Shown in pieces: positions 1-18,311 of a stretch of 55,170 nucleotides of DNA; position 1 is the stretch's first letter; each line of letters starts with the position of its first letter. The notes beneath the pieces were generated by a model that worked only from the letters and a program-made list of their open reading frames with translations, had not been told where the DNA came from and made no database searches. The position numbers were made by a program, and so were the translations under genes. The stretch is from an uncultured Sphingomonas sp. (GTDB lineage Bacteria; Pseudomonadota; Alphaproteobacteria; Sphingomonadales; Sphingomonadaceae). The stretch covers positions 1 to 55,170 of the forward strand of contig CAJYIX010000006.1 in NCBI GenBank assembly GCA_913775315.1, written 5' to 3'.

Positions 1-105
1 GGCCGTCTGAAGGACTGGCGCCGTGTCGCCACCCGCTACGATCGGTGCCCAAACGCCTTCTTCTCCGCCGTCGCCCTCGCTGCCACCATCATCTTCTGGC
101 TGTGA
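1..105 (+). CDS. IS5 family transposase, C-terminal end (partial)
   Basis: The first base is in frame and the reading continues for 34 codons to a TGA. The visible peptide starts GRLKDWRRVATRYDRC and ends AATIIFWL. The R-x-x-T-R-Y-D...N-F...A-V-A-L-A...I-x-F-W-L pattern is the typical last stretch of IS5-family DDE transposases, after the catalytic Glu helix. The rest of the gene lies left of the window, so intactness cannot be judged. The stop is followed within a few bases by a likely terminal inverted repeat. Family assignment is from the peptide pattern and is fairly secure; the subgroup is not. Confidence 0.85.
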   Translation, partial: GRLKDWRRVATRYDRCPNAFFSAVALAATIIFWL

Positions 106-124
106 TCAACGAGTCCTGACCCTA
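1..124 (+). mobile_element. Right end of an IS5-type insertion sequence
   Basis: It contains the transposase tail and, just after the stop, GAGTCCTGACCCTA (111-124), which looks like the terminal inverted repeat of the element. The left end is outside the window, so the repeat cannot be matched to its partner. CTAG at 122-125 may be part of the target duplication. The element interrupts the third recombinase gene described next. Confidence 0.65.
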
Positions 125-276
125 GGTCGCGGACAACTCTTCGTCACGTCCCATACGGGCTCGTCGAAAACCAGATCTGACCCGAAGGCGGCACAATCGT
201 AGCGAGCGCGCTTAATGAATGCCTCGAGCGCCGAGCGCGCGTTTCGCTCGGGGATGGCTACGATCCGCTCAAACAT
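106..276 (-). pseudogene. Third recombinase-operon gene, 5' fragment cut by the IS
   Basis: A reading frame starts with ATG at 276, eight bases before the end of the upstream recombinase gene (ATGTTTGA overlap), which indicates translational coupling. It encodes about 50 residues of apparently genuine protein, including EAFIKRARYDCAAFGSDLVF and DEPVWDVT. It then runs into the insertion-sequence end near 124 and stops at 106. A GTG at 297 is an alternative start. The acidic/aromatic F-D-x-P-V-W-D-V-T patch resembles my recollection of N-termini in the large third proteins of multi-recombinase modules, but no domain is long enough to prove it. I infer that this was the third gene of the operon, now disrupted. 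The distal part should lie beyond the other IS end. Confidence 0.6.
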
Positions 277-1831
277 TGGTCGAGTCTTCGTCGGCACGCT
301 TAACCGCGATCCTCGCTATTGTATCCTTCACCGCGTCGATAAGTTCGTCCTCGATCCCGATCATCTTTGGATGAAGCCCAAGGTTTGCGCGCTCTTCTCT
401 GGCGCGCTGCAGCTGATCGAGAACTTCTTCGTGCGGACCGTCCATCCACGCCTGGAATTTCACGCAGGTATAGCACGCATAGGGAGCGGTGATGCCGCAG
501 AAGCGAAACTCGCCGCAGTTGCCGATGACCTCGACCCGGTTAGTTTCGCGGTCGGCAACGAAGCGTCGACTGGCCTCGTCATCACCCCTGACGGCCTCGG
601 TTTCGGATCGAATGATGCCGGAGAACGCTTGCGCACGCGGGGCAAGGGCCGTCGTCATCGCAGCATCGATGTGATCAACAATGTCGGAGTGGATTTCCCA
701 GTAGACGGGCACATTCTGCAAGTCGCTATGGTCGAGGACGTCGGCGACCGCGGCCTGTGATGCCCCGTTCGCCACCATCCTGCTCGGCAAGGTGTAGCGG
801 AAGCGGCGGCATGTGACCTCAAGCGGTTTGCCGCCGTATGTCGTGATTCCTAGGCGAAGTACTGCACGTTGGAGCAACGCCGTGTAGGCTGAAGCTGACA
901 TATGGGCCTGCCACTGGTCGTCCATCGTGAAGCGCTTACGCAGCTTGCCTTTTCGCATGAGCGGCCGAGCGTCGTTCTCAAAGGCCGGTCGGGATTGGTT
1001 CCACTCGATCAAGTCCTGTATGATCTCGCCAAATAGACCGGTGAGCTTTCGTTTCCTGAAGGATGATCGCGATAGTGCATCGCCCTTTTTGTGCCGGGGA
1101 ATACTGATGATCCACGCCGCGATCTCGTCGCCCGAGCGCAGAGGTTCAACGTCCCCCTCGCGCATAGAAGCAAACTGGCTGGGGTTCGAACCAAACGCAA
1201 GCGCCAAGGCCAGCGCTGCCTGTTCAGGCAACGGCATCGAGCCAGAAAGCCGGGCGGCACGCAGGGCAGTAATAATTGCCGATACTTCGCGTGCTGTCAG
1301 TGGCCCTTCATCAGGATCGCGAGATCGGACCGCCTTGCCCTTGCTGTTTCCGCCGATCCGCCAATCCTCGATTTGATCTAGGACACCCTGATCAAAGCCA
1401 GCATGGCCGTTCTGCGTGCACCAACGATACATCGCGCGGCCGTAGTGGAGCTTCCACTGATTCTCCTTCCCCAGATACTCCCGCGCTTCGCTAAACGCGA
1501 GGTAGGGTATAAGGTCGGCTGTCACCGCAGCCTGCTGGAAGGCCGGCATCCGGGCGAGGATGCCGATCTGATAAAAGGCGTTCCCCACGGCCGCTGGCGA
1601 AACACTTTTGATGAGATGAGCGAAATAACTCTTGATCGCATCTAGAGCGGTGCAATCCTGCAGCGGCAATCTGGCCCAGTTGATCGACTTCGAACGCATG
1701 GGGTCGTTCATTCGCCACACCGCGCCCGACACATCGACAGGCAGTCCTGCGCGATCCATGATAATGGTGTCACGCGGAGGCCACCTGCGCTCGGGGCTCT
1801 GATGCGCCGTGATGCGCAGACCCGCCATCAC
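269..1831 (-). CDS. Divergent tyrosine recombinase (second gene of module)
   Basis: This 520-residue protein has a tyrosine-recombinase fold in its second half. CRRFRYT (about 341-347) occupies the H-x-x-R position with Arg in place of His, LDHSD (366-370) supplies the second His, and the candidate nucleophile is Tyr377 in VYWE. The first catalytic Arg is not seen; the expected G-x-R site reads G-S-N (214-216). After the catalytic domain comes a Cys-rich tail with C439, C445, C453 and C456, a possible zinc site, followed by a helical end. This layout resembles the second recombinase of Tn554-like modules. The GTG start at 1831 overlaps the preceding stop; ATG 1828 is equally possible. The gene is less GC-rich than the core genes, consistent with acquisition. 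Confidence 0.8.
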   Translation of the reverse strand: MMAGLRITAHQSPERRWPPRDTIIMDRAGLPVDVSGAVWRMNDPMRSKSINWARLPLQDCTALDAIKSYFAHLIKSVSPAAVGNAFYQIGILARMPAFQQAAVTADLIPYLAFSEAREYLGKENQWKLHYGRAMYRWCTQNGHAGFDQGVLDQIEDWRIGGNSKGKAVRSRDPDEGPLTAREVSAIITALRAARLSGSMPLPEQAALALALAFGSNPSQFASMREGDVEPLRSGDEIAAWIISIPRHKKGDALSRSSFRKRKLTGLFGEIIQDLIEWNQSRPAFENDARPLMRKGKLRKRFTMDDQWQAHMSASAYTALLQRAVLRLGITTYGGKPLEVTCRRFRYTLPSRMVANGASQAAVADVLDHSDLQNVPVYWEIHSDIVDHIDAAMTTALAPRAQAFSGIIRSETEAVRGDDEASRRFVADRETNRVEVIGNCGEFRFCGITAPYACYTCVKFQAWMDGPHEEVLDQLQRAREERANLGLHPKMIGIEDELIDAVKDTIARIAVKRADEDSTNV

Positions 1832-3048
1832 GCTCCCGCCTTCATCGCATCAGTCGGGGCATGAAGGGCGCGCAGGATCTTGGCGGCTTCGCGCACTATT
1901 TCGGAATGGGCGTAGCGCGCATCCTGCTCGGACGTTTTATTCCAGCCCATGATGTAATTGTTGATGATGCGGCGGAAAGGCTCAGGCCATCCGTATTCGG
2001 CGGCCAACCGGCGGAAACGCGAGTTCCACGTATGGCGTAGCTTGTGGGACGATAGGTCCGCAGGTAGATCTCCGGGAAAGCGAGCTCTCAATATCCGGAA
2101 TATGTCATACTGCGCATCGAGCGACATGGCTGCGCCGCCATTCGTCTCCAGGAAGATGTACGGATTTCTTTTGTGGCCCGGCTGCCGGGTCCTCCACTTC
2201 ATGATGTACTCGTCCATGAAGAAGGCGAGAAGCGGGCTGATCGGCAAATCGCGACCAGCCGTTTTGACCAAGGGCGGATCGGTGCGGTGCTCTTCGGGAT
2301 CGTTCGGGTTGGGAACGATGCTGATGCCGGGGTACCGGCCCGCGACGTTGACGTGTTCCGACTTCAACACAAGCGGCTCTGCCTCTCGCATGCCAAGCTC
2401 GACGAAGAACAGAACTATGCAGAAATTGCGGTGCCGGGTGTGCGGAGCGAACGGGTTGCGAGGATCGTCCGGGCGGATGACCTGCATCAGGAATTCAAGT
2501 TCTTCGTCGGTAAGGGCGTTTCGCTGCTTCTGCTTGCTTCCCCTGATGTTCGCCGCCACGTTCTTAAGAACCGCAAGGCGCGCATTGACCATATAGACTC
2601 GGGACTGGTCGGTCATTGCCAGCGTGAGGTGGGACATCCTCCATTCCACAAAAGCTACGACGCGCTTCATTCTGTCTTTGTGGGTATTGCCGACGACGAC
2701 GCGTTTGACCTTCAATCCCTTGATGTCGAGCGGCGCCTTTTTGCTGGTGCGCATGAATTCGGAGAGATTTTCTACTTCAATCGGAGAAAACAGGTCACCG
2801 GATCCGAGGCGCTGCGCGACGTCGATGCCCTCGTTTTCCGCCCATTCGTAAAAAAGGCAGAGCGAGTCGACGACGCGGTTCGCGAGGTTTATCGATTTCT
2901 GCCGCAGCCTCGCGAGTGCATAGCGCAGCACCCAAGCATCGGGCAGGTCTGTGCTCCGGGCACACATAAACGCAAAGCGCTCGCCGTTATCAAAGCGAAC
3001 GTTTTTGCGATAATATGAGCTTGGTGGTGTTTCGGCTAACAGCTTCAT
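1828..3048 (-). CDS. Tyrosine recombinase/integrase (first gene of module)
   Basis: A 406-residue site-specific recombinase with every catalytic residue visible: Arg221 (LGMREAE), His335-x-x-Arg338 (SSHKLRHTW), Trp369 (MGWNK) and the nucleophile Tyr379 (DARYAH). The N-terminal 170 residues form the expected core-binding helical domain. It is the first gene of a minus-strand operon and its stop overlaps the next start (TGATG). I chose ATG at 3048. An in-frame ATG at 3141 would place the start directly against the ssb terminator with no ribosome-binding site, and its extra 31 residues are unlike the family. The substrate sites are unknown. It probably mobilises the island whose right end lies next to ssb. 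Confidence 0.85.
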   Translation of the reverse strand: MKLLAETPPSSYYRKNVRFDNGERFAFMCARSTDLPDAWVLRYALARLRQKSINLANRVVDSLCLFYEWAENEGIDVAQRLGSGDLFSPIEVENLSEFMRTSKKAPLDIKGLKVKRVVVGNTHKDRMKRVVAFVEWRMSHLTLAMTDQSRVYMVNARLAVLKNVAANIRGSKQKQRNALTDEELEFLMQVIRPDDPRNPFAPHTRHRNFCIVLFFVELGMREAEPLVLKSEHVNVAGRYPGISIVPNPNDPEEHRTDPPLVKTAGRDLPISPLLAFFMDEYIMKWRTRQPGHKRNPYIFLETNGGAAMSLDAQYDIFRILRARFPGDLPADLSSHKLRHTWNSRFRRLAAEYGWPEPFRRIINNYIMGWNKTSEQDARYAHSEIVREAAKILRALHAPTDAMKAGA

Positions 3049-3149
3049 CAATCTCGTTCTTGCGGCAACAACCGAAGAACGTATGCAGAACCTGACTGTG
3101 GTGCAACAGGTTACCAGGCGGCCCGATAGAAATCGATTCATAATGGGAC

Positions 3150-3185
3150 AAAAAACGGGCTCCTAGTTACAACTAGGAGCCCGTT
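3150..3185 (-). terminator. Rho-independent terminator of ssb
   Basis: Perfect inverted repeat with 15-bp arms: AACGGGCTCCTAGTT at 3154-3168 and its complement at 3171-3185, with a 2-bp spacer. Six A residues (3150-3155) lie on the left, so the minus-strand transcript reads hairpin then U-run. This suits leftward transcripts from ssb and would also insulate the recombinase operon. The loop is very short, so the DNA form (cruciform or recombination site) may matter too. Confidence 0.75.
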
Positions 3186-3271
3186 ATCCAACCCTATCCT
3201 TTCAACCACTCTAGTTACAAAGGAATTGGCCAATTTGTCTCGTCAAATGAGGTCAGTTACAGTTTTTGTTA
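3163..3271. other. Candidate attachment/recombinase-binding region
   Basis: The 10-mer CTAGTTACAA occurs at 3163-3172 and again at 3211-3220. A third AGTTAC lies at 3255-3260 and a GTTAC at 3267-3271. Between them is a perfect 12-bp palindrome, AATTGGCCAATT (3224-3235). The region lies exactly between the first recombinase gene and the ssb stop, where the right end of an integrated element would be expected. Assignment as an att site is inference. Confidence 0.35.
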
Positions 3272-3283
3272 CCCCCCCCGGAG

Positions 3284-3841
3284 TCAGAACGGCACGTCGT
3301 CGTCCAGATCGTCGGGGAAGCCGCCATAATCGTTCGAGCGGCCACCGCCCGACCCGCCGGCACCGCCGCGCGACCCGCCACCGCCGCCGCTGCGGCCCGA
3401 CGACTGGCCCGCAAAGTCGCCGCCGCCGAAATCGTCACCGCCGCGCGACCCGCCGCCATAGCCGCCGCCGCCGCTGCCCTGCCCCCCGCCCGGACCGTCG
3501 AGCATCGTCAGCACGCTGTTGAAGCCCTGCAGCACCACCTCGGTGCTGTACTTGTCCTGGCCGTTCTGGTCCTGCCACTTCCGGGTCTGGAGCTGGCCCT
3601 CGATATACACCTTCGATCCCTTGCGCAGGAACCGCTCGGCGACGTTCGCCAATCCTTCGTTGAAGATCGCGACCGAGTGCCACTCGGTCTTTTCCTTCTT
3701 CTCGCCGGTATTGCGGTCCTTCCAGCTTTCCGATGTCGCGATGCGCAGGTTCACGACCTTGCCGCCGTTCGAGAAGCTGCGCGATTCGGGATCGCGGCCA
3801 AGGTTGCCGACGAGGATCACCTTGTTCACCGAACCTGCCAT
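3284..3841 (-). CDS. ssb: Single-stranded DNA-binding protein SSB
   Basis: This 185-residue protein has an N-terminal OB fold (about 1-112; [38 protein letters not shown]). A Gly/Ser/Arg-rich disordered linker follows (about 115-172), and the protein ends in the acidic tip DDDVPF, which in SSB proteins recruits replication and repair partners. It coats single-stranded DNA as a tetramer during replication, repair and recombination. The start ATG is preceded by GAAGGGAACAAGAC. It is followed by a hairpin terminator and then by the recombinase module, so its 3' flank is a plausible integration hot spot. The gene itself is intact. Confidence 0.97.
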
Positions 3842-9699: not shown

Positions 9700-9758
9700 T
9701 CGGTCGCGCGCGGGGCACAGGGCTGGCCTGTCGCGGCCCGACGCCCTATCTTTGGCTC

Positions 9759-10109
9759 ATGACCTTCCTCGAACGTCTCTCGCCGCTTCGGGCGTGGCGC
9801 GACCTGCGCCTGTTCCTGTCGTACCGGCAGCCCTATGAGCTGATCTTCCTGGCGCTGGCGATCATCGTGACGGCGGTGGTCATCGCCGCCTTCTACGTCG
9901 ACTCAAAGATCGAGAAGCCGTACAAGCCGCCCGAGATCACTTATTTCGAAAGCTGGCCCGCGGATCGAACCGACGCGCAGATCAAAGCGCAGCAGGCGAT
10001 CGACCAGGCCAAGAAAGAAAAGCTGATGGCCGAACTCAAGGCCAAACAGGAAGAGCGAAAAGCCGAGTTCAAGCGCCTGAACGACAAGCTGGAGCGCTGG
10101 GGCCTTTGA
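9759..10109 (+). CDS. Small single-pass membrane protein upstream of ribD
   Basis: 116 residues beginning MTFLERLSPLRAWRD. It has one clear transmembrane helix (LIFLALAIIVTAVVIAAFYV, about 30-50) and then a soluble tail. The tail carries PEITYFESWPADRTD and a long Lys/Glu/Gln-rich helix that is probably a coiled coil (about 75-112). I do not recognise a functional family. The stop overlaps the TTG start of ribD (TTGA), so it is the first gene of the riboflavin transcript. The frame runs upstream without a stop, but the ATG at 9759 is the first sensible start after the repeat region. Confidence 0.75.
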   Translation: MTFLERLSPLRAWRDLRLFLSYRQPYELIFLALAIIVTAVVIAAFYVDSKIEKPYKPPEITYFESWPADRTDAQIKAQQAIDQAKKEKLMAELKAKQEERKAEFKRLNDKLERWGL

Positions 10110-11068
10110 CCGATGACGAGCGCTGGATGGGGGCGGCGCTCGCGCTGGCGGCGCGGGGCGTCGGGCGCACGGCTCCCAATCCAAGCGTCGGCTGCGTAAT
10201 CGCGAAGGACGGCCGCGTCGTCGGTCGCGGCTGGACCCAGCCTGGTGGACGCCCGCATGCGGAAGCGATGGCGCTGGCGCAGGCGGGCGACGCCGCCAGA
10301 AGCGCCACCGCCTATGTGACGCTCGAACCCTGCGCGCACGAGTCGGCGCGGGGGCCCGCCTGTGCCGATCTGCTCGCCGCAGCCGGCGTTGCGCGGGTGG
10401 TGGCGGCGCTGCGCGATCCCGACCCGCGCACCGACGGCGCGGGCCTTGCCCGCTTGGCCGCGGCCGGCATCGACTCGCGCTGCGGCCTGCGCGAGGGCGA
10501 AGCGCGCGCGAGCATGGCGGGGTTTCTCACCCGCCGGGTGCTGGGTCGGCCGCACGTCACGCTCAAGCTTGCGCTGTCGCTCGACGGCGGCGTGGCGATG
10601 GGCGACGGCCGGAGCCAGTGGATCACCGGAGCCGAAGCGCGCGCGCATGCGCATCTGGAGCGCGCCCGTCACGATCTGATACTGGTAGGCGCGGGCACGC
10701 TTGCAGCCGATGCCCCCCGCCTCGACGTGCGGCTACAAGGGCTTGAGGATCGGGCACCCCGGCGGGTCCTGCTCAGCCGGACGGTCCGGCCACCGGAAGG
10801 CTGGCTGGGCGTCGATCGCCCTGGCGATATCGCCGACCTGCCGGGCGACCTTCTGATGATCGAGGGCGGCGCGGCGACCGCCGCCGCCTTCCTCGCCGCG
10901 GGTCTGGTCGACCGGCTGCTCGTCTATCGCGCGCCGATCCTGATCGGGGCGGCGCGGACGCTCGGCGATATCGGGCTTAGGGATTTGGGGCAGGCGCATG
11001 GGCGCTGGCGCCGCACCGACCGGCGGACGCTTGGCGTCGATACGCTTGAGGTGTACGGGCGCGCCTGA
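10106..11068 (+). CDS. ribD: RibD, riboflavin deaminase/reductase
   Basis: 320 residues. The N-terminal cytidine-deaminase-like domain (about 1-145) has the zinc motif H51-A-E53 (GGRPHAEAM) and PC...C (C76, C86). The C-terminal domain (about 146-320) is the NADPH-dependent reductase (HVTLKLALSLDGGVA, LVGAGTL, IEGGAATAAAFL). It converts the pyrimidine released by GTP cyclohydrolase II in two steps of riboflavin synthesis. The TTG start at 10106 gives the usual RWMGAALALA N-terminus and overlaps the previous stop. Its stop overlaps the ribE ATG. Confidence 0.95.
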   Translation: MTDDERWMGAALALAARGVGRTAPNPSVGCVIAKDGRVVGRGWTQPGGRPHAEAMALAQAGDAARSATAYVTLEPCAHESARGPACADLLAAAGVARVVAALRDPDPRTDGAGLARLAAAGIDSRCGLREGEARASMAGFLTRRVLGRPHVTLKLALSLDGGVAMGDGRSQWITGAEARAHAHLERARHDLILVGAGTLAADAPRLDVRLQGLEDRAPRRVLLSRTVRPPEGWLGVDRPGDIADLPGDLLMIEGGAATAAAFLAAGLVDRLLVYRAPILIGAARTLGDIGLRDLGQAHGRWRRTDRRTLGVDTLEVYGRA

Positions 11069-11676
11069 TGTTTACCGGAATCGTCACCGATGTCGGCCGT
11101 ATCGAGGCCGTCGAAACGCAGGGCGACCTGCGCGTCATCGTCTCCACCGCCTATGATACCGCCGCGATCGACCTCGGCGCGTCGGTCATGTGCTCGGGCG
11201 TCTGCCTGACCGTGGTCGACAAGTCGCCGGGCCGGCTTGCCTTCGACTTGTCGGCCGAGAGCGTGTCGCGCACCGCCGAGGGCATGTGGAGCGAGGGGCG
11301 CGCGCTCAACCTCGAACGCGCGCTGCGGCTGGGCGACGAGCTGGGCGGGCATATCGTCACCGGCCATGTCGATGCGGTCGGCACGGTCGCCGCGGTCGAG
11401 CCCGAGGGCGGCAGCCTGCGCGTGACCATCGAAGCGCCGCGCGACCTCGCCCCCTATGTGGCGGCGAAGGGCTCGATCACCGTCGACGGCATCTCGCTGA
11501 CCGTCAATTCGGTCGATGACACCCCGGACGCCGTGCGCTTCGGCCTCAACATCATCCCGCACACGGCCGAGGTCACAACCTTTGCCGACCTCACGCCGGG
11601 CCGCGCCGTCAATCTCGAGATCGACGTGCTCGCCCGCTACCTCCAGCGCATGGAACAGGCGCGTGCCGCAACCTGA
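11068..11676 (+). CDS. ribE: Riboflavin synthase alpha subunit
   Basis: 202 residues starting with the signature MFTGIVTDVG. Two homologous lumazine-binding barrels are visible, with CSGVCLTVVD in the first and GSITVDGISLTVNSV plus NIIPHTAEVTTF in the second. It dismutates two 6,7-dimethyl-8-ribityllumazine molecules to riboflavin. It overlaps ribD by one base and the next gene by about 14 bases. Confidence 0.95.
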   Translation: MFTGIVTDVGRIEAVETQGDLRVIVSTAYDTAAIDLGASVMCSGVCLTVVDKSPGRLAFDLSAESVSRTAEGMWSEGRALNLERALRLGDELGGHIVTGHVDAVGTVAAVEPEGGSLRVTIEAPRDLAPYVAAKGSITVDGISLTVNSVDDTPDAVRFGLNIIPHTAEVTTFADLTPGRAVNLEIDVLARYLQRMEQARAAT

Positions 11677-12808
11677 AGTCTCCCGTCTCCGCCACGCCTT
11701 CCTCTCCAGCCCCGAGGAGATCATCGACGAGGCGCGTAACGGGCGCATGTTCATCCTCGTCGACGACGAGGATCGGGAGAATGAGGGCGACCTCGTCATC
11801 CCCGCACAGATGGCGACGCCCGCCGCGATCAACTTCATGGCGACGCATGGCCGCGGCCTGATCTGTCTCGCCATGACCAAGGCGCGGACCGACCAGCTCG
11901 GCCTGCCGCTGATGAGCGCCGCCAACGGCACCCGGCACCAGACCGCGTTCACCGTGTCGATCGAGGCGGTGAAGGGTGTCACCACCGGCATTTCCGCCGC
12001 CGACCGCGCGCGCACCATCTCGGTCGCGATCGACGCGTCGAAGGGGCCGGAGGAGATCACCACCCCCGGCCACGTCTTCCCGCTGGTCGCGCGCGAGGGC
12101 GGCGTGCTGGTCCGCGCCGGCCATACCGAGGCGGCGGTGGACGTGTCGCGCCTCGCCGGGCTCAATCCCTCGGGCGTGATCTGCGAGATCATGAAAGAGG
12201 ACGGGACGATGGCCCGCCTCGACGACCTCGTCTCATTCGCGCAGTTCCACAACCTTAAGATCGGCACGATCCGCGACCTCATCGCCTATCGCCGCCGCTA
12301 CGATCACCTCGTCGAGAAGCGCGCCGAGACCCGCTTCGACAGCGCCTGGGGCGGCGAGTGGCGGGCGATCACCTATTGGAACCGCGCGCAGGGCACCGAG
12401 CAGATCGCGCTGGTCAAGGGCCGGATCGACCCGACCAAGCCGACGCTGGTCCGCATGCACGCCCTTTCCCCCCTGCCCGACCTGTTCGGTGAGGCGGGGC
12501 AGCGCGGATCGCTCCTCCGCCGCTCGATGGAGATCATCGGCGAGGAGGGCGCGGGCGTCATCGTCGTCATCAACAAGCCGCGCAGCGACGCCTTCACCAC
12601 CGCGCTGATGGCGCGCGAGGGCAAGCTCGCGCCCGCCGACATGGACGAGCTGCGCGATTACGGCGTCGGCGCGATGATCCTGACCGAATTGGGCGTCGAG
12701 GAGATGACGCTTCTCACCAACACCCACCACACGCTCGTCGGGCTCGAAGGCTATGGCCTGTCGATCGTCGGTGAGCGGCCGATCACCCTGGAAGAGGACG
12801 CCGCCTGA
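11663..12808 (+). CDS. ribB: RibB with degenerate GTP cyclohydrolase II domain (RibBX-like)
   Basis: 381 residues from a GTG at 11663. The N-terminal half is 3,4-dihydroxy-2-butanone-4-phosphate synthase with intact [11 protein letters not shown] (34-44), the T-T-G-I-S loop, and the GHTEAAVD region. The C-terminal half aligns by pattern with GTP cyclohydrolase II ([39 protein letters not shown]). It lacks the three zinc Cys (expected C-L-T-G...C-D-C, here [15 protein letters not shown]) and the RQEGRGIGL active-site loop. It should therefore supply only the RibB activity; a separate ribA is expected elsewhere. Such RibBX hybrids are known in proteobacteria. Confidence 0.92.
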
Positions 12809-15113: not shown

Positions 15114-18100
15114 GTGATCTCACGGATCTTCATCGACCGGCCGATCTTCGCCTGGGTCATCGCGATCGTCATCATGCTGGCGGGCGTCGGCGCCATCCTG
15201 ACGCTGCCGATCGAGCAATATCCCGACATCGCCCCGCCGCAGATCAACGTGCGTGCGAATTATCCCGGCGCGTCGGCGGAAATTCTCGAAAGCTCGGTCA
15301 CACAGGTGATCGAGCAGCAGCTGACCGGCATCGACGGGCTCATCTACTTCTCGTCACAGTCGAGCTCGGCGGGCTCGGTCACCGTCACCGTGACGTTCGA
15401 GAAGGGCACCGACCCCGACATCGCGCAGGTGCAGGTCCAGAACAAGGTGCAGCAGGCGCTCCCCCGCCTGCCGGCGCAGGTGCAGCAACAGGGCCTGACC
15501 GTCACCAAGTCGAACGCCGACTTCCTGATGGTCGTGTCGGTCTATGACGAGAGCGACAAGACCACCGCGATCGACGTCGCCGACTTCCTCGTCTCGAACC
15601 TTCAGGACCGGCTGGGCCGCGTCACCGGGGTCGGCGACGTCAACGTGTTCGGCACGCAGTACGCGATGCGCATCTGGCTCAACCCCTATGCGCTGTCGTC
15701 CTACCAGCTCATGCCGAGCGACGTGACCGCCGCGATCGAGGCGCAGAACACGCAGGTCGCCGCCGGTCAGATCGGCCAGCAGCCTGCCCCGCCGGGCCAG
15801 ATGCTCAACGCCACCGTGACCGCGAAATCGCGCCTTCAGACGCCCGAGCAGTTCAAGAACATCATCGTCAAGACGCAGACCAACGGCAGCCGCGTCCTCC
15901 TTTCCGACGTCGCGCGCGTCGAACTGGGCGCGGAGAACTACACGACGATCAGCCGCCTCAACGGCCATCCGGGCGCGGGCATCGCGATCCAGCTGGCGCC
16001 GGGCGCCGACGCGCTCGCCACCGCCGAACTGGTCAAGGCGGAGGTCGAGAGCCAGGCCGCGTCCTTCCCGCCGGGCTACAAATACGCTTACCCCAATGAC
16101 TCCACCGCCTTCATCAAACTGTCGGTCGAGGAAGTGGTGAAGACGCTGATCGAGGCGATCATCCTCGTCGTCATCGTCATGTTCGTGTTCCTGCAAAGCT
16201 GGCGCGCAACGCTGATCCCGGCGATCGCGGTGCCCGTTGTGCTGCTCGGCACGTTCGCGATCCTCGCCATCGCCGGGTTCACGATCAACACGCTGACGCT
16301 GTTCGGCCTCGTCCTCTCGATCGGCCTGCTCGTCGACGACGCGATCGTCGTCGTCGAGAACGTCGAGCGCGTGATGGAGGAAAATCCCGAGATGTCGCCC
16401 AAGGAGGCGACGATCATCTCGATGAGCGAGATCCAGATCGCGCTGATCGCCATCGCGCTCGTCCTGTCGGCGGTGTTCGCGCCGATGGCGTTCTTCGGCG
16501 GGTCGGTCGGCGAAATCTATCGTCAGTTCTCGATCACCGTCATCTCCTCGATGATCCTGTCGGTGATCGTCGCGCTCGTCTTGTCGCCCGCACTGACCGC
16601 CACCTTGCTCAAGCGCCCCGCCGACAAGAAGAAGCCGAAAAACAAGATCGGCCAATGGGTCGAGAAATTCGGTGACAAGTTCAATCGCGGGTTCGAAAAG
16701 ACGTCGAACAAGTATCGCGACACGGTAAAGTGGGTGTTCGGCAAGCGCGTCCTGGCGCTCGCCGTCTATGCGGGCCTTTGCGCCCTCTTCGTCCTCGTCT
16801 TCATCGGCCTGCCGACCAGCTTCCTGCCGAGCGAGGATCAGGGGCGCGCGCAGATCCAGTACACGCTGCCCGCCGGCGCGACACAGGAGCGAACGCTCGC
16901 CGCCGCGCAGGCGATCGAGAAATACTTCCTCGGCCCGGCAAAGGAGAATGTCTCGATCGTCTACACGATCAGCGGTTCGGGTCCGGGCGGCGCGGGCCAG
17001 AATGCCGGTCGCGGATTCATCGCGCTCTCGCCCTGGGACCAGCGCGAGGGCGCCGAGAACAGCGCACAGGCGATCACGCGCCAGGCGACGCAGGCACTGC
17101 GCGGGCTTCGCGACGTGCAGTTCTTCGCGCTCAATCCGCCGCCGGTCCGCGGCCTGGGCCAGGCGGGCGGCTTCACGCTGCAATTGCTAAACACCGGCGG
17201 CCTCGACCGTGAGACGTTCAAGGCGCGGCGCGACGAGCTGCTGGCCAAGGCATCGGCTGATCCGGCGCTGTCGAACGTCCGCCAGAACGAACTGCCAGAC
17301 GTGCCAACGCTCCAGATCGAGATGGATCAGGCCAAGCTCGGCGCGCTCGGCCTCAGCGCTACGCAGGTCGACCAGACGCTGTCGGCGGCTTGGGGCGGCG
17401 TCTATGTCAACGATTTCGTCGACCGCGGCCGCGTGAAGCGCGTCTATGTCCAGGGCGATGCCGGCTATCGCGCGCGGCCCGAGGACCTGTCCAACTGGTT
17501 CGTGCGCGGATCGAGCGGCCAGATGGCCCCCTTCACCAGCTTCGCCAAGGCCGAATGGGGCGTCGCCCCCACCGTCCTCGCCCGATTCCAGGGCCAGCCT
17601 GCCTATCAGATCCAGGGCGAGCCGGCGGCGGGCGAAAGCTCGGGCGCGGCGATGGACAAGATGGAGGAACTGGTCGGCCAGATGCAGGGCGTCAGCGTCG
17701 CCTGGTCGGACCTCTCCTATCAGGAGCGGCTGTCGGGCGGTCAGGCGCCGCTTCTCTACGGCCTGTCGATCCTCGTCGTGTTCCTGTGCCTTGCCGCACT
17801 CTACGAAAGCTGGTCGGTGCCGTTCTCGGTGCTGCTGGTGGTGCCGCTCGGCCTGCTCGGCGCGGCGATCGCGGTGTGGCTGCGCGGCCTCGAGAACGAC
17901 GTCTATTTCCAGGTCGGGCTGCTCACCACCATGGGCCTGTCCGCCAAGAACGCGATCCTGATCGTCGAGTTCGCCGAACAGGCCGAATGCGAGGGGATGA
18001 GCCCGATGGAAGCCTCGCTCGAGGCGGCGCGGCTTCGCTTGCGCCCGATCCTGATGACCAGCTTCGCCTTCATCTTCGGCGTCGTGCCGCTGGCGATCTC

Positions 18101-18311
18101 GACCGGCGCGGGTGCGGCCAGCCGCGTCGCGATCGGCACCGCGGTGATCGGCGGCATGATCGCCGCGACCGTGCTCGCCATCTTCTTCGTGCCGCTCTTC
18201 TACGTGCTCGTGCGCAAGCTGTTCGGCGGCAAGGTGCACGGCGCCGAGGAAGAGGAAGCGCACCGCCGCGACCAGCGCGAACGCGGGACCGAGGGTGAAC
18301 CGACTTTATGA
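15114..18311 (+). CDS. RND multidrug efflux permease (HAE1 family)
   Basis: 1065 residues, full AcrB/MexB length. It starts ISRIFIDRPIFAWVIAIVIM and has twelve expected membrane helices in two repeats with two large periplasmic loops. The proton-relay Asp pair is visible in LLVDDAIVVVENVERVM (helix 4), and helix 10 carries the Lys in LSAKNAILIVEFAEQ. The GTG start lies six bases after the adaptor stop. A soluble Lys-rich loop (about residues 500-525, RPADKKKPKNKIGQ) is where this family varies. It exports hydrophobic or amphiphilic compounds with proton exchange; actual substrates cannot be read from sequence. Confidence 0.95.
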   Translation: MISRIFIDRPIFAWVIAIVIMLAGVGAILTLPIEQYPDIAPPQINVRANYPGASAEILESSVTQVIEQQLTGIDGLIYFSSQSSSAGSVTVTVTFEKGTDPDIAQVQVQNKVQQALPRLPAQVQQQGLTVTKSNADFLMVVSVYDESDKTTAIDVADFLVSNLQDRLGRVTGVGDVNVFGTQYAMRIWLNPYALSSYQLMPSDVTAAIEAQNTQVAAGQIGQQPAPPGQMLNATVTAKSRLQTPEQFKNIIVKTQTNGSRVLLSDVARVELGAENYTTISRLNGHPGAGIAIQLAPGADALATAELVKAEVESQAASFPPGYKYAYPNDSTAFIKLSVEEVVKTLIEAIILVVIVMFVFLQSWRATLIPAIAVPVVLLGTFAILAIAGFTINTLTLFGLVLSIGLLVDDAIVVVENVERVMEENPEMSPKEATIISMSEIQIALIAIALVLSAVFAPMAFFGGSVGEIYRQFSITVISSMILSVIVALVLSPALTATLLKRPADKKKPKNKIGQWVEKFGDKFNRGFEKTSNKYRDTVKWVFGKRVLALAVYAGLCALFVLVFIGLPTSFLPSEDQGRAQIQYTLPAGATQERTLAAAQAIEKYFLGPAKENVSIVYTISGSGPGGAGQNAGRGFIALSPWDQREGAENSAQAITRQATQALRGLRDVQFFALNPPPVRGLGQAGGFTLQLLNTGGLDRETFKARRDELLAKASADPALSNVRQNELPDVPTLQIEMDQAKLGALGLSATQVDQTLSAAWGGVYVNDFVDRGRVKRVYVQGDAGYRARPEDLSNWFVRGSSGQMAPFTSFAKAEWGVAPTVLARFQGQPAYQIQGEPAAGESSGAAMDKMEELVGQMQGVSVAWSDLSYQERLSGGQAPLLYGLSILVVFLCLAALYESWSVPFSVLLVVPLGLLGAAIAVWLRGLENDVYFQVGLLTTMGLSAKNAILIVEFAEQAECEGMSPMEASLEAARLRLRPILMTSFAFIFGVVPLAISTGAGAASRVAIGTAVIGGMIAATVLAIFFVPLFYVLVRKLFGGKVHGAEEEEAHRRDQRERGTEGEPTL

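Follow-up and report, generated by a model that had tools for sequence, protein, structure and literature searches.

A GInt-type genomic island very likely inserted at the 3' end of ssb and later disrupted in ginC by an IS5-family element in an uncultured Sphingomonas sp.

The first 55,170 nucleotides of contig CAJYIX010000006.1 (contig C6, assembly GCA_913775315.1) of an uncultured Sphingomonas sp., hereafter the window, begin with a recombinase operon whose sequence identifies it as part of a GInt (Genomic Island with three Integrases; Bardaji et al. 2017, PMC5385486), with ginA, ginB, and the beginning of ginC. GInts were published in 2017, and this is therefore a known kind of element and not the undescribed type that a preliminary description of this DNA had considered. 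The assignment is made because relatives of the operon show the ginA-ginB-ginC-ginD order and module, matching PMC5385486, and it is very likely that the window holds the left end of a GInt located at the 3' end of ssb and later disrupted in ginC by an IS5-family insertion sequence (IS). The window resembles GInts in its ginA, ginB, and start of ginC, their order and their overlaps, as well as in a target at the end of ssb whose product stays unchanged, imperfect direct repeats at both ends, and cargo inside the right end; it differs in that ginC is cut by the IS, ginD was not found, and GinB has an asparagine at the position of the first catalytic arginine (Arg I), which is common to a mostly alphaproteobacterial branch. 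What is most notable is this branch, together with the absent Arg I and a left end that seems to spare the host gene.

The nearest relatives of the window GinB are ∼80% identical and are in Sphingomonas aquatilis DSM 15581 (locus L157) and a Sphingomonas metagenome-assembled genome (MAG; locus L156), in both of which the third and fourth gin genes are complete. As described previously, the first two recombinase genes are coupled, in open reading frames (ORFs) spanning 1828-3141 and 269-1831 with a 4-nt overlap; the start of ginA is taken as ATG 3048, and ATG 3141 is unconserved in L156 and L157. The third frame, which starts at ATG 276, has 8 nt in common with the end of ginB, stop codon included (ATGTTTGA), and an overlap of the same length is found in L156 and L157 (ATGATTGA). 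The ∼50 protein-like residues previously noted in this frame match the start of the 683-amino acid (aa) GinC of locus L024 (22/46 identical, E 6e-14) and the GinC of L156, the nearest relative (65% identical, E 3.7e-20), and by this homology the frame is a true gene, beyond chance. After entering the IS, it meets a stop within a few codons. At the DNA level, the window matches L156 with 78.7% identity over 3,213 columns (from window position 3325 to 128) and L157 with 78.1% identity over 3,078 columns, and similarity to both ceases at position 128, adjoining the IS border, where the homologous stretch reads CCGCGTCCCAG in L156 and CCGCGACCTAG in the window. The earlier proposal that an IS5-type end cuts the third gene is borne out by this end point and by the presence of the same IS right end at seven contig ends of the genome. 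The element part has a G+C content of 57.6%, compared with 68% for the window. Scans of the window proteins gave general integrase families only with PHROGs, and none with PADLOC.

A collection of contigs from many genomes was scanned with a ginB alignment, giving 206 relatives among 243 candidate stretches, and the best 80 of these together with loci L021 to L024 form a set of 84 loci, all selected by ginB, that were screened with gin profiles built in this analysis and refined on the same loci. The set includes near-copies: L024 and L159 apparently represent a single contig, and GinB does not differ within the pairs L174/L175 and L196/L197. All four gin genes are present in 69 of the 84 loci, and the full module thus has four genes and not the three of the preliminary description. 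That account had also named natural two-gene modules, ending at position 269, as a possible counter-case, but ginC is present in 83 of 84 loci and the sole exception, L198 (ginA and ginB only), ends at its contig end. A ginA match is missing in two loci (L161 and L171) and a ginD match in 12, of which 7 are at a contig end. At a threshold of E≤1e-30, a ginB match is found in only 2 of the family's 298 genomes (the window's own and G165), so close ginB relatives are rare in the family at that level. Some loci depart from the simple module: in L205 (Variovorax; 9740-12457), ginB and ginC matches fall in one ORF of ∼906 codons, perhaps by fusion or deletion; L228 (Alloalcanivorax; 15629-18146) has a second ginC-ginD pair downstream of the first gin operon; and the Sphingomonas MAG bin06 carries two different GInts (L156 and L167), with GinB proteins 80% and 35% identical to that of the window.

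Table 1. Features of the GInt left end and its borders, in window coordinates
Feature	Coordinates	Strand	Details
IS5-family insertion sequence, right end	1..121	+	last 34 transposase codons at 1-105, then terminal repeat
CTAG, likely IS target duplication	122..125		(C)TAG after 7/7 right ends; only one copy observed
ginC, first 50 codons only	127..276	-	homology to GinC of L024 and L156
ginB, 520 aa, tyrosine-recombinase fold, C-terminal four-Cys tail	269..1831	-	NF041502 full length, 315.5 bits
ginA, 406 aa, tyrosine recombinase	1828..3048	-	PF00589 E 1.9e-5, 25 bits vs cut-off 27.1
Rho-independent terminator-like hairpin, ssb-ginA gap, part of element	3154..3185	-	14-bp stem, -25.2 kcal/mol, z -7.3
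Three subterminal TGTAAC repeats	3256-3261, 3214-3219, 3166-3171	-	candidate accessory binding sites
attL	3275..3304	-	element arm TGACTCCGGGGG 3275-3286; spacer CCGTTC 3287-3292; host arm 3293-3304 (last ssb codons)
ssb, insertion target	3284..3841	-	PF00436 E 4.3e-36

The position of the gin operon next to ssb is widely shared. Of the 84 loci, 69 have an ssb ORF upstream of ginA. The two genes are no more than 350 nt apart in 65 of these (the exceptions are L160, L166, L182, and L209), and the ssb ORF ends with Pro-Phe-stop in 68 of the 69 (tips DDIPF, 58; DEIPF, 8; DDVPF, 2; other, 1). As SSB proteins generally end in this way, these tips show that the product is unchanged. In PMC5385486, 6 of 11 GInts are reported to lie at the end of ssb, and insertion there to leave the product intact. 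For the window locus, the only one compared in this way, a same-genus relative (L114, in genome G334) provides an empty site, with an ssb that is 99% identical and no element. The attL site was defined by comparison with this empty site and with attR, which is on contig C24 at 2433-2453 and reads CCCCCGGAATAG CCTTTC TGA, where attL reads CCGTTC followed by the element arm. Both element ends are therefore known, although the middle is unassembled. Compared with the inverted left arm, the attR arm agrees at 9 of 12 positions, a score reached by none of 200 shuffled arms, and the direct repeat GCC[G/T]TTCTGA matches at 9 of 10 positions (GCCGTTCTGA at attL and GCCTTTCTGA at attR); imperfect direct repeats of 10 to 17 nt are reported for GInt ends (PMC5385486). 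The C24 end (2394-2454, 61 bases) and the right end of L156, which reads CCCCCGGAATAA CCGTTC TGA, share 85% identity (E 4e-11), and the DNA beyond attR (C24:2476-3950) is 93% identical to that downstream of ssb in the empty-site relative.

The putative 6-bp spacers between the arms, as delimited by eye, are CCGTTC at the left end and CCTTTC at the right. The pattern search for attR sites required CCNTTY beforehand, and the evidence for a Pro-Phe spacer comes from the window and L156, whose ends were set by homology. CCTTTC is found at 1 of 30 ssb ends in the window genome and its same-genus relatives. In the model for strand-biased circularizing integrative elements (SEs), the right-end spacer derives from the previous insertion site (PMC10214605), and by analogy CCTTTC would be the trace of an earlier ssb with a different proline codon.

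Several features of the left end suggest how ssb may be spared. The ssb stop codon is now probably supplied by the element, being read as part of its arm, and the hairpin in the ssb-ginA gap, as predicted from its sequence, may work as a terminator. By a single criterion that allows one mismatch within the first 200 nt 3' of ssb, a hairpin is present in 42 of the 69 ssb-linked regions (68 relatives and the window) and absent from 27. Ten shuffles give on average 1.3 such regions out of 69, and the reverse strand gives 11; a stricter criterion missed imperfect stems, including the native hairpin of L114. Among 29 same-genus ssb loci (in which the presence of elements was unchecked), two have a hairpin by the same criterion, one being L114, where a native terminator-like hairpin follows ssb; its counterpart in the window genome is beyond attR on C24. 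The word 'terminator' is absent from the main texts of PMC5385486 and PMC10214605. The TGTAAC repeats may have a binding role, as judged from their placement: there are four copies on both strands of the whole 55-kb window, of which three are at the element left end, and the inverted repeat occurs twice at the C24 right end (-102 and -29) and in L156 (-103 and -29).

The other side of the ginC break lies beyond contig C6. Contig C6, one of 44 in a genome of 3,245,941 bases that is estimated to be 98% complete, ends within the IS, the far side of which lies outside the window. The 34 terminal transposase residues give a weak DDE_Tnp_1_2 match (E 0.0063, under the family cut-off), and we take the IS to be a member of the IS5 family, IS427 group. 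The same right end is present at seven contig ends and a left end at four (C9, C11, C34, and C37), and the assembly breaks here because the IS is repeated in the genome. All seven right ends are followed by (C)TAG, whereas the left ends are followed by CTAG (two) or CTAA (two), and at least two left ends are thus unpairable with the right ends found, if the duplications are exact. Separately, contig ends C8, C29, and C43 of this assembly share a sequence that resembles an Illumina adapter.

A number of observations weigh against the reading of the window as the left end of a GInt broken by an IS. Three different full-length GinC queries found nothing in the genome's contigs beyond the window's own ginC start, and the GinD of L156 gave a best match of E 0.16, on another contig; the complete four-gene operon is thus seen in relatives only, being absent from the contigs searched, and most of the cargo is unseen there as well. 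The window scores for NF041502 (with a cut-off of 350 bits) and PF00589 are under the curated cut-offs. Among the relatives, absence of ginD in L162, L172, L186, L210, and L233 is unexplained by contig ends, and 15 of the 84 loci have no ssb upstream of ginA, partly through contig starts. Finally, the arm and spacer limits were set by eye from two ends. A second GinC-query match (E 0.26) and the ginD candidate at E 0.16 were both dismissed as chance.

The continuation of the third frame past the IS, which the preliminary description expected, is likewise not found in the genome's contigs, contig C6 itself starting inside the IS. One explanation is that, once the IS had inserted, an IS-mediated deletion or IS-IS recombination took away ginD, the remainder of ginC, and some of the cargo, leaving the element as a remnant. 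This would account for the failure to find either the ginC remainder or ginD in a genome called 98% complete, and for the four IS left ends, none of which is followed by ginC and two of which (C9 and C11, the ones with CTAG and the ones compared with relatives) border chromosomal backbone that is 92 to 93% identical to G334. When the seven right-end flanks were compared with four pieces of G334 and G323, a match was obtained for C6 only. However, the seven right and four left ends imply that pieces are missing, including at least three left ends, and with a smallest contig of 4,963 bases, a short contig carrying the ginC remainder may be one of the missing pieces, so that a deletion and an assembly gap are both possible; we give the deletion slightly less than an even chance. 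For the GInt as it stands, the loss of mobility suspected earlier is upheld as a probable outcome, because ginC ends after 50 codons and all four gin genes are reported to be required for excision and integration in Pseudomonas (PMC5385486). By analogy with that system, the window copy is probably fixed in place unless helped in trans.

Other identities for the module have been considered, including the Tn554-like and gamma-mobile-trio modules to which it was first likened. Tn554 (tnpA, tnpB, and tnpC) is also site-specific, and its operon combines tyrosine recombinases with a small protein, but it has three genes, where 69 of 84 window relatives have four, and a different target, att554 in radC. 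DUF6262, which we take to be a TnpC family, weakly matches two of the three GinD relatives scanned, with scores under the cut-off. The fourth GInt product has itself been reported to be TnpC-like (PMC5385486), and the likeness to Tn554 is retained to this extent, although membership in Tn554 is unsupported; a counterpart of CDS2/Tfp is reported as lacking in Tn554 (PMC10214605). SEs (PMC10214605) resemble the window element in having two catalytic-type recombinases, a recombinase-fold protein, and a small protein, and in a 6-bp spacer between inverted arms that differs between the left and right ends, but their gene order intA-tfp-intB-srap is not that of the window's relatives, and the sequence families are reported to be distinct. 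The order in the relatives is ginA-ginB-ginC-ginD, neither intA-tfp-intB-srap nor tnpABC, the target is ssb, and GinB matches NF041502, as does a Pseudomonas aeruginosa ginB relative (553.9 bits); a Tn554-like or SE-like element in place of a GInt is highly improbable. The gamma-mobile-trio also has recombinase genes side by side, comparable with the three recombinase-related genes in tandem here, and GmtY weakly matches the ginA of L021 (15 bits, compared with a cut-off of 340). The three window proteins nonetheless differ in having no GmtY, GmtZ, or GmtX match in NCBIfam at E≤1 (the library holds the GmtY model; those of GmtZ and GmtX were unchecked), and we find a gamma-mobile-trio or RIT element scarcely credible.

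The gin recombinases of the GInt differ in their catalytic residues. GinA has R221, K262, H335, R338, W369, and Y379, which are conserved in 82 to 83 of 83 alignment rows. In GinB, the Arg I column of 85 rows contains R in 64, N in 20 (including the window, at Asn216), and Y in one; the histidine of the HxxR motif is present in none of the 85, and the second Arg, the Tyr, and the four Cys of the tail are present in all. An AlphaFold model of GinB (from a 52-sequence alignment; mean pLDDT 85.8) matches Cre, XerA, and XerH (best E 4.8e-7), and from the alignments Asn216 appears to occupy the Arg I position. In GinC, the corresponding residues are R (83/84), H (76/79), R (79/79), and Y (77/77) among filled rows, and R replaces His/Trp in 77 of 78. 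Profile alignments align the same columns, with probabilities of 96.8% for GinC-GinB, only 26% for GinB-GinA, and 4.5% for GinC-GinA. GinC has been reported to be without the first arginine (PMC5385486) and without the catalytic tyrosine (PMC10214605), both of which disagree with the 84-row alignment.

A GinB tree computed without the Arg I column (by a quick method, with two long rows flagged) separates, with an SH-aLRT of 100, a group of 22 rows composed of 20 with Asn, one with Arg, and one with Tyr, and all of the other 63 rows have Arg. The 21 members other than the window are from Alphaproteobacteria (16), Betaproteobacteria (2), or lack a class (3: L021, a Bosea plasmid; L024, the apparent copy of L159; and L170, an unclassed MAG). 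The window thus appears to belong to a distinct, mostly alphaproteobacterial GInt branch whose GinB carries Asn where the first catalytic Arg is expected. The papers listed as having GInts for their main subject were PMC5385486 and PMC10214605, and no description of an Asn-type GinB was met in this literature, in which no search was aimed at this type by name. A 2023 survey reports that ginC-ginD blocks are found "not at all" in Alphaproteobacteria (PMC10214605), and GInts are listed in Alpha-, Beta-, and Gammaproteobacteria in PMC5385486. Because Arg I is lost in this branch and the His is missing in all 85 rows, GinB may be unable to cut, with GinA alone exchanging strands and GinC acting as a tetramer-completing helper, an arrangement we put forward as a tentative and rather unlikely one. 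If GinA alone cuts, recombination would halt after one strand, which would explain GInt and SE circles without an empty site.

In the mechanism that we propose, GinA, GinB, GinC, and the small GinD would act jointly at a site in which a 6-bp spacer, the Pro-Phe codon pair of ssb, is flanked by two 12-bp arms that form an imperfect inverted repeat, and the circular element would insert 3' of the codons for the conserved SSB tip (Asp-Asp-Ile/Val-Pro-Phe). Data for Pseudomonas GInts fit cuts staggered by 6 nt (PMC5385486). The element would restore the ssb stop codon and supply its own terminator, and the essential host gene ssb would thereby be kept. In the window copy, the IS stops ginC after 50 codons, which probably immobilises the element.

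Cargo is visible in part. Inside attR on C24 (L150:1-2040) are a yeiH-like transporter gene, within which the contig starts, and a LysR regulator. In L156 (14486-18271) and L157, the cargo includes a RecD2-like helicase, a lamin-tail-domain protein (with a score under the cut-off), and a further protein of 376 aa in L156 (with no Pfam match) and 370 aa in L157. The L157 contig (1-9894) is exactly one intact GInt, having TTCTGA of the att repeats as its first and last bases, and thus hints at a second GInt copy or a circular form in S. aquatilis DSM 15581.

These findings place GInts in Sphingomonas and its relatives, in a class where the published survey reported none (PMC10214605), and supply close intact comparisons in S. 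aquatilis DSM 15581 and the Sphingomonas MAG, with GinB proteins that are 80% identical. The lost catalytic residues yield a testable claim as to which of the three integrases cuts DNA. Divergent GInts across phyla use one target, and the placement of the spacer on the Pro-Phe codons of the SSB tip would account for this. A stop codon and terminator carried by the element itself, provided that they function as read, would account for the sparing of an essential gene.

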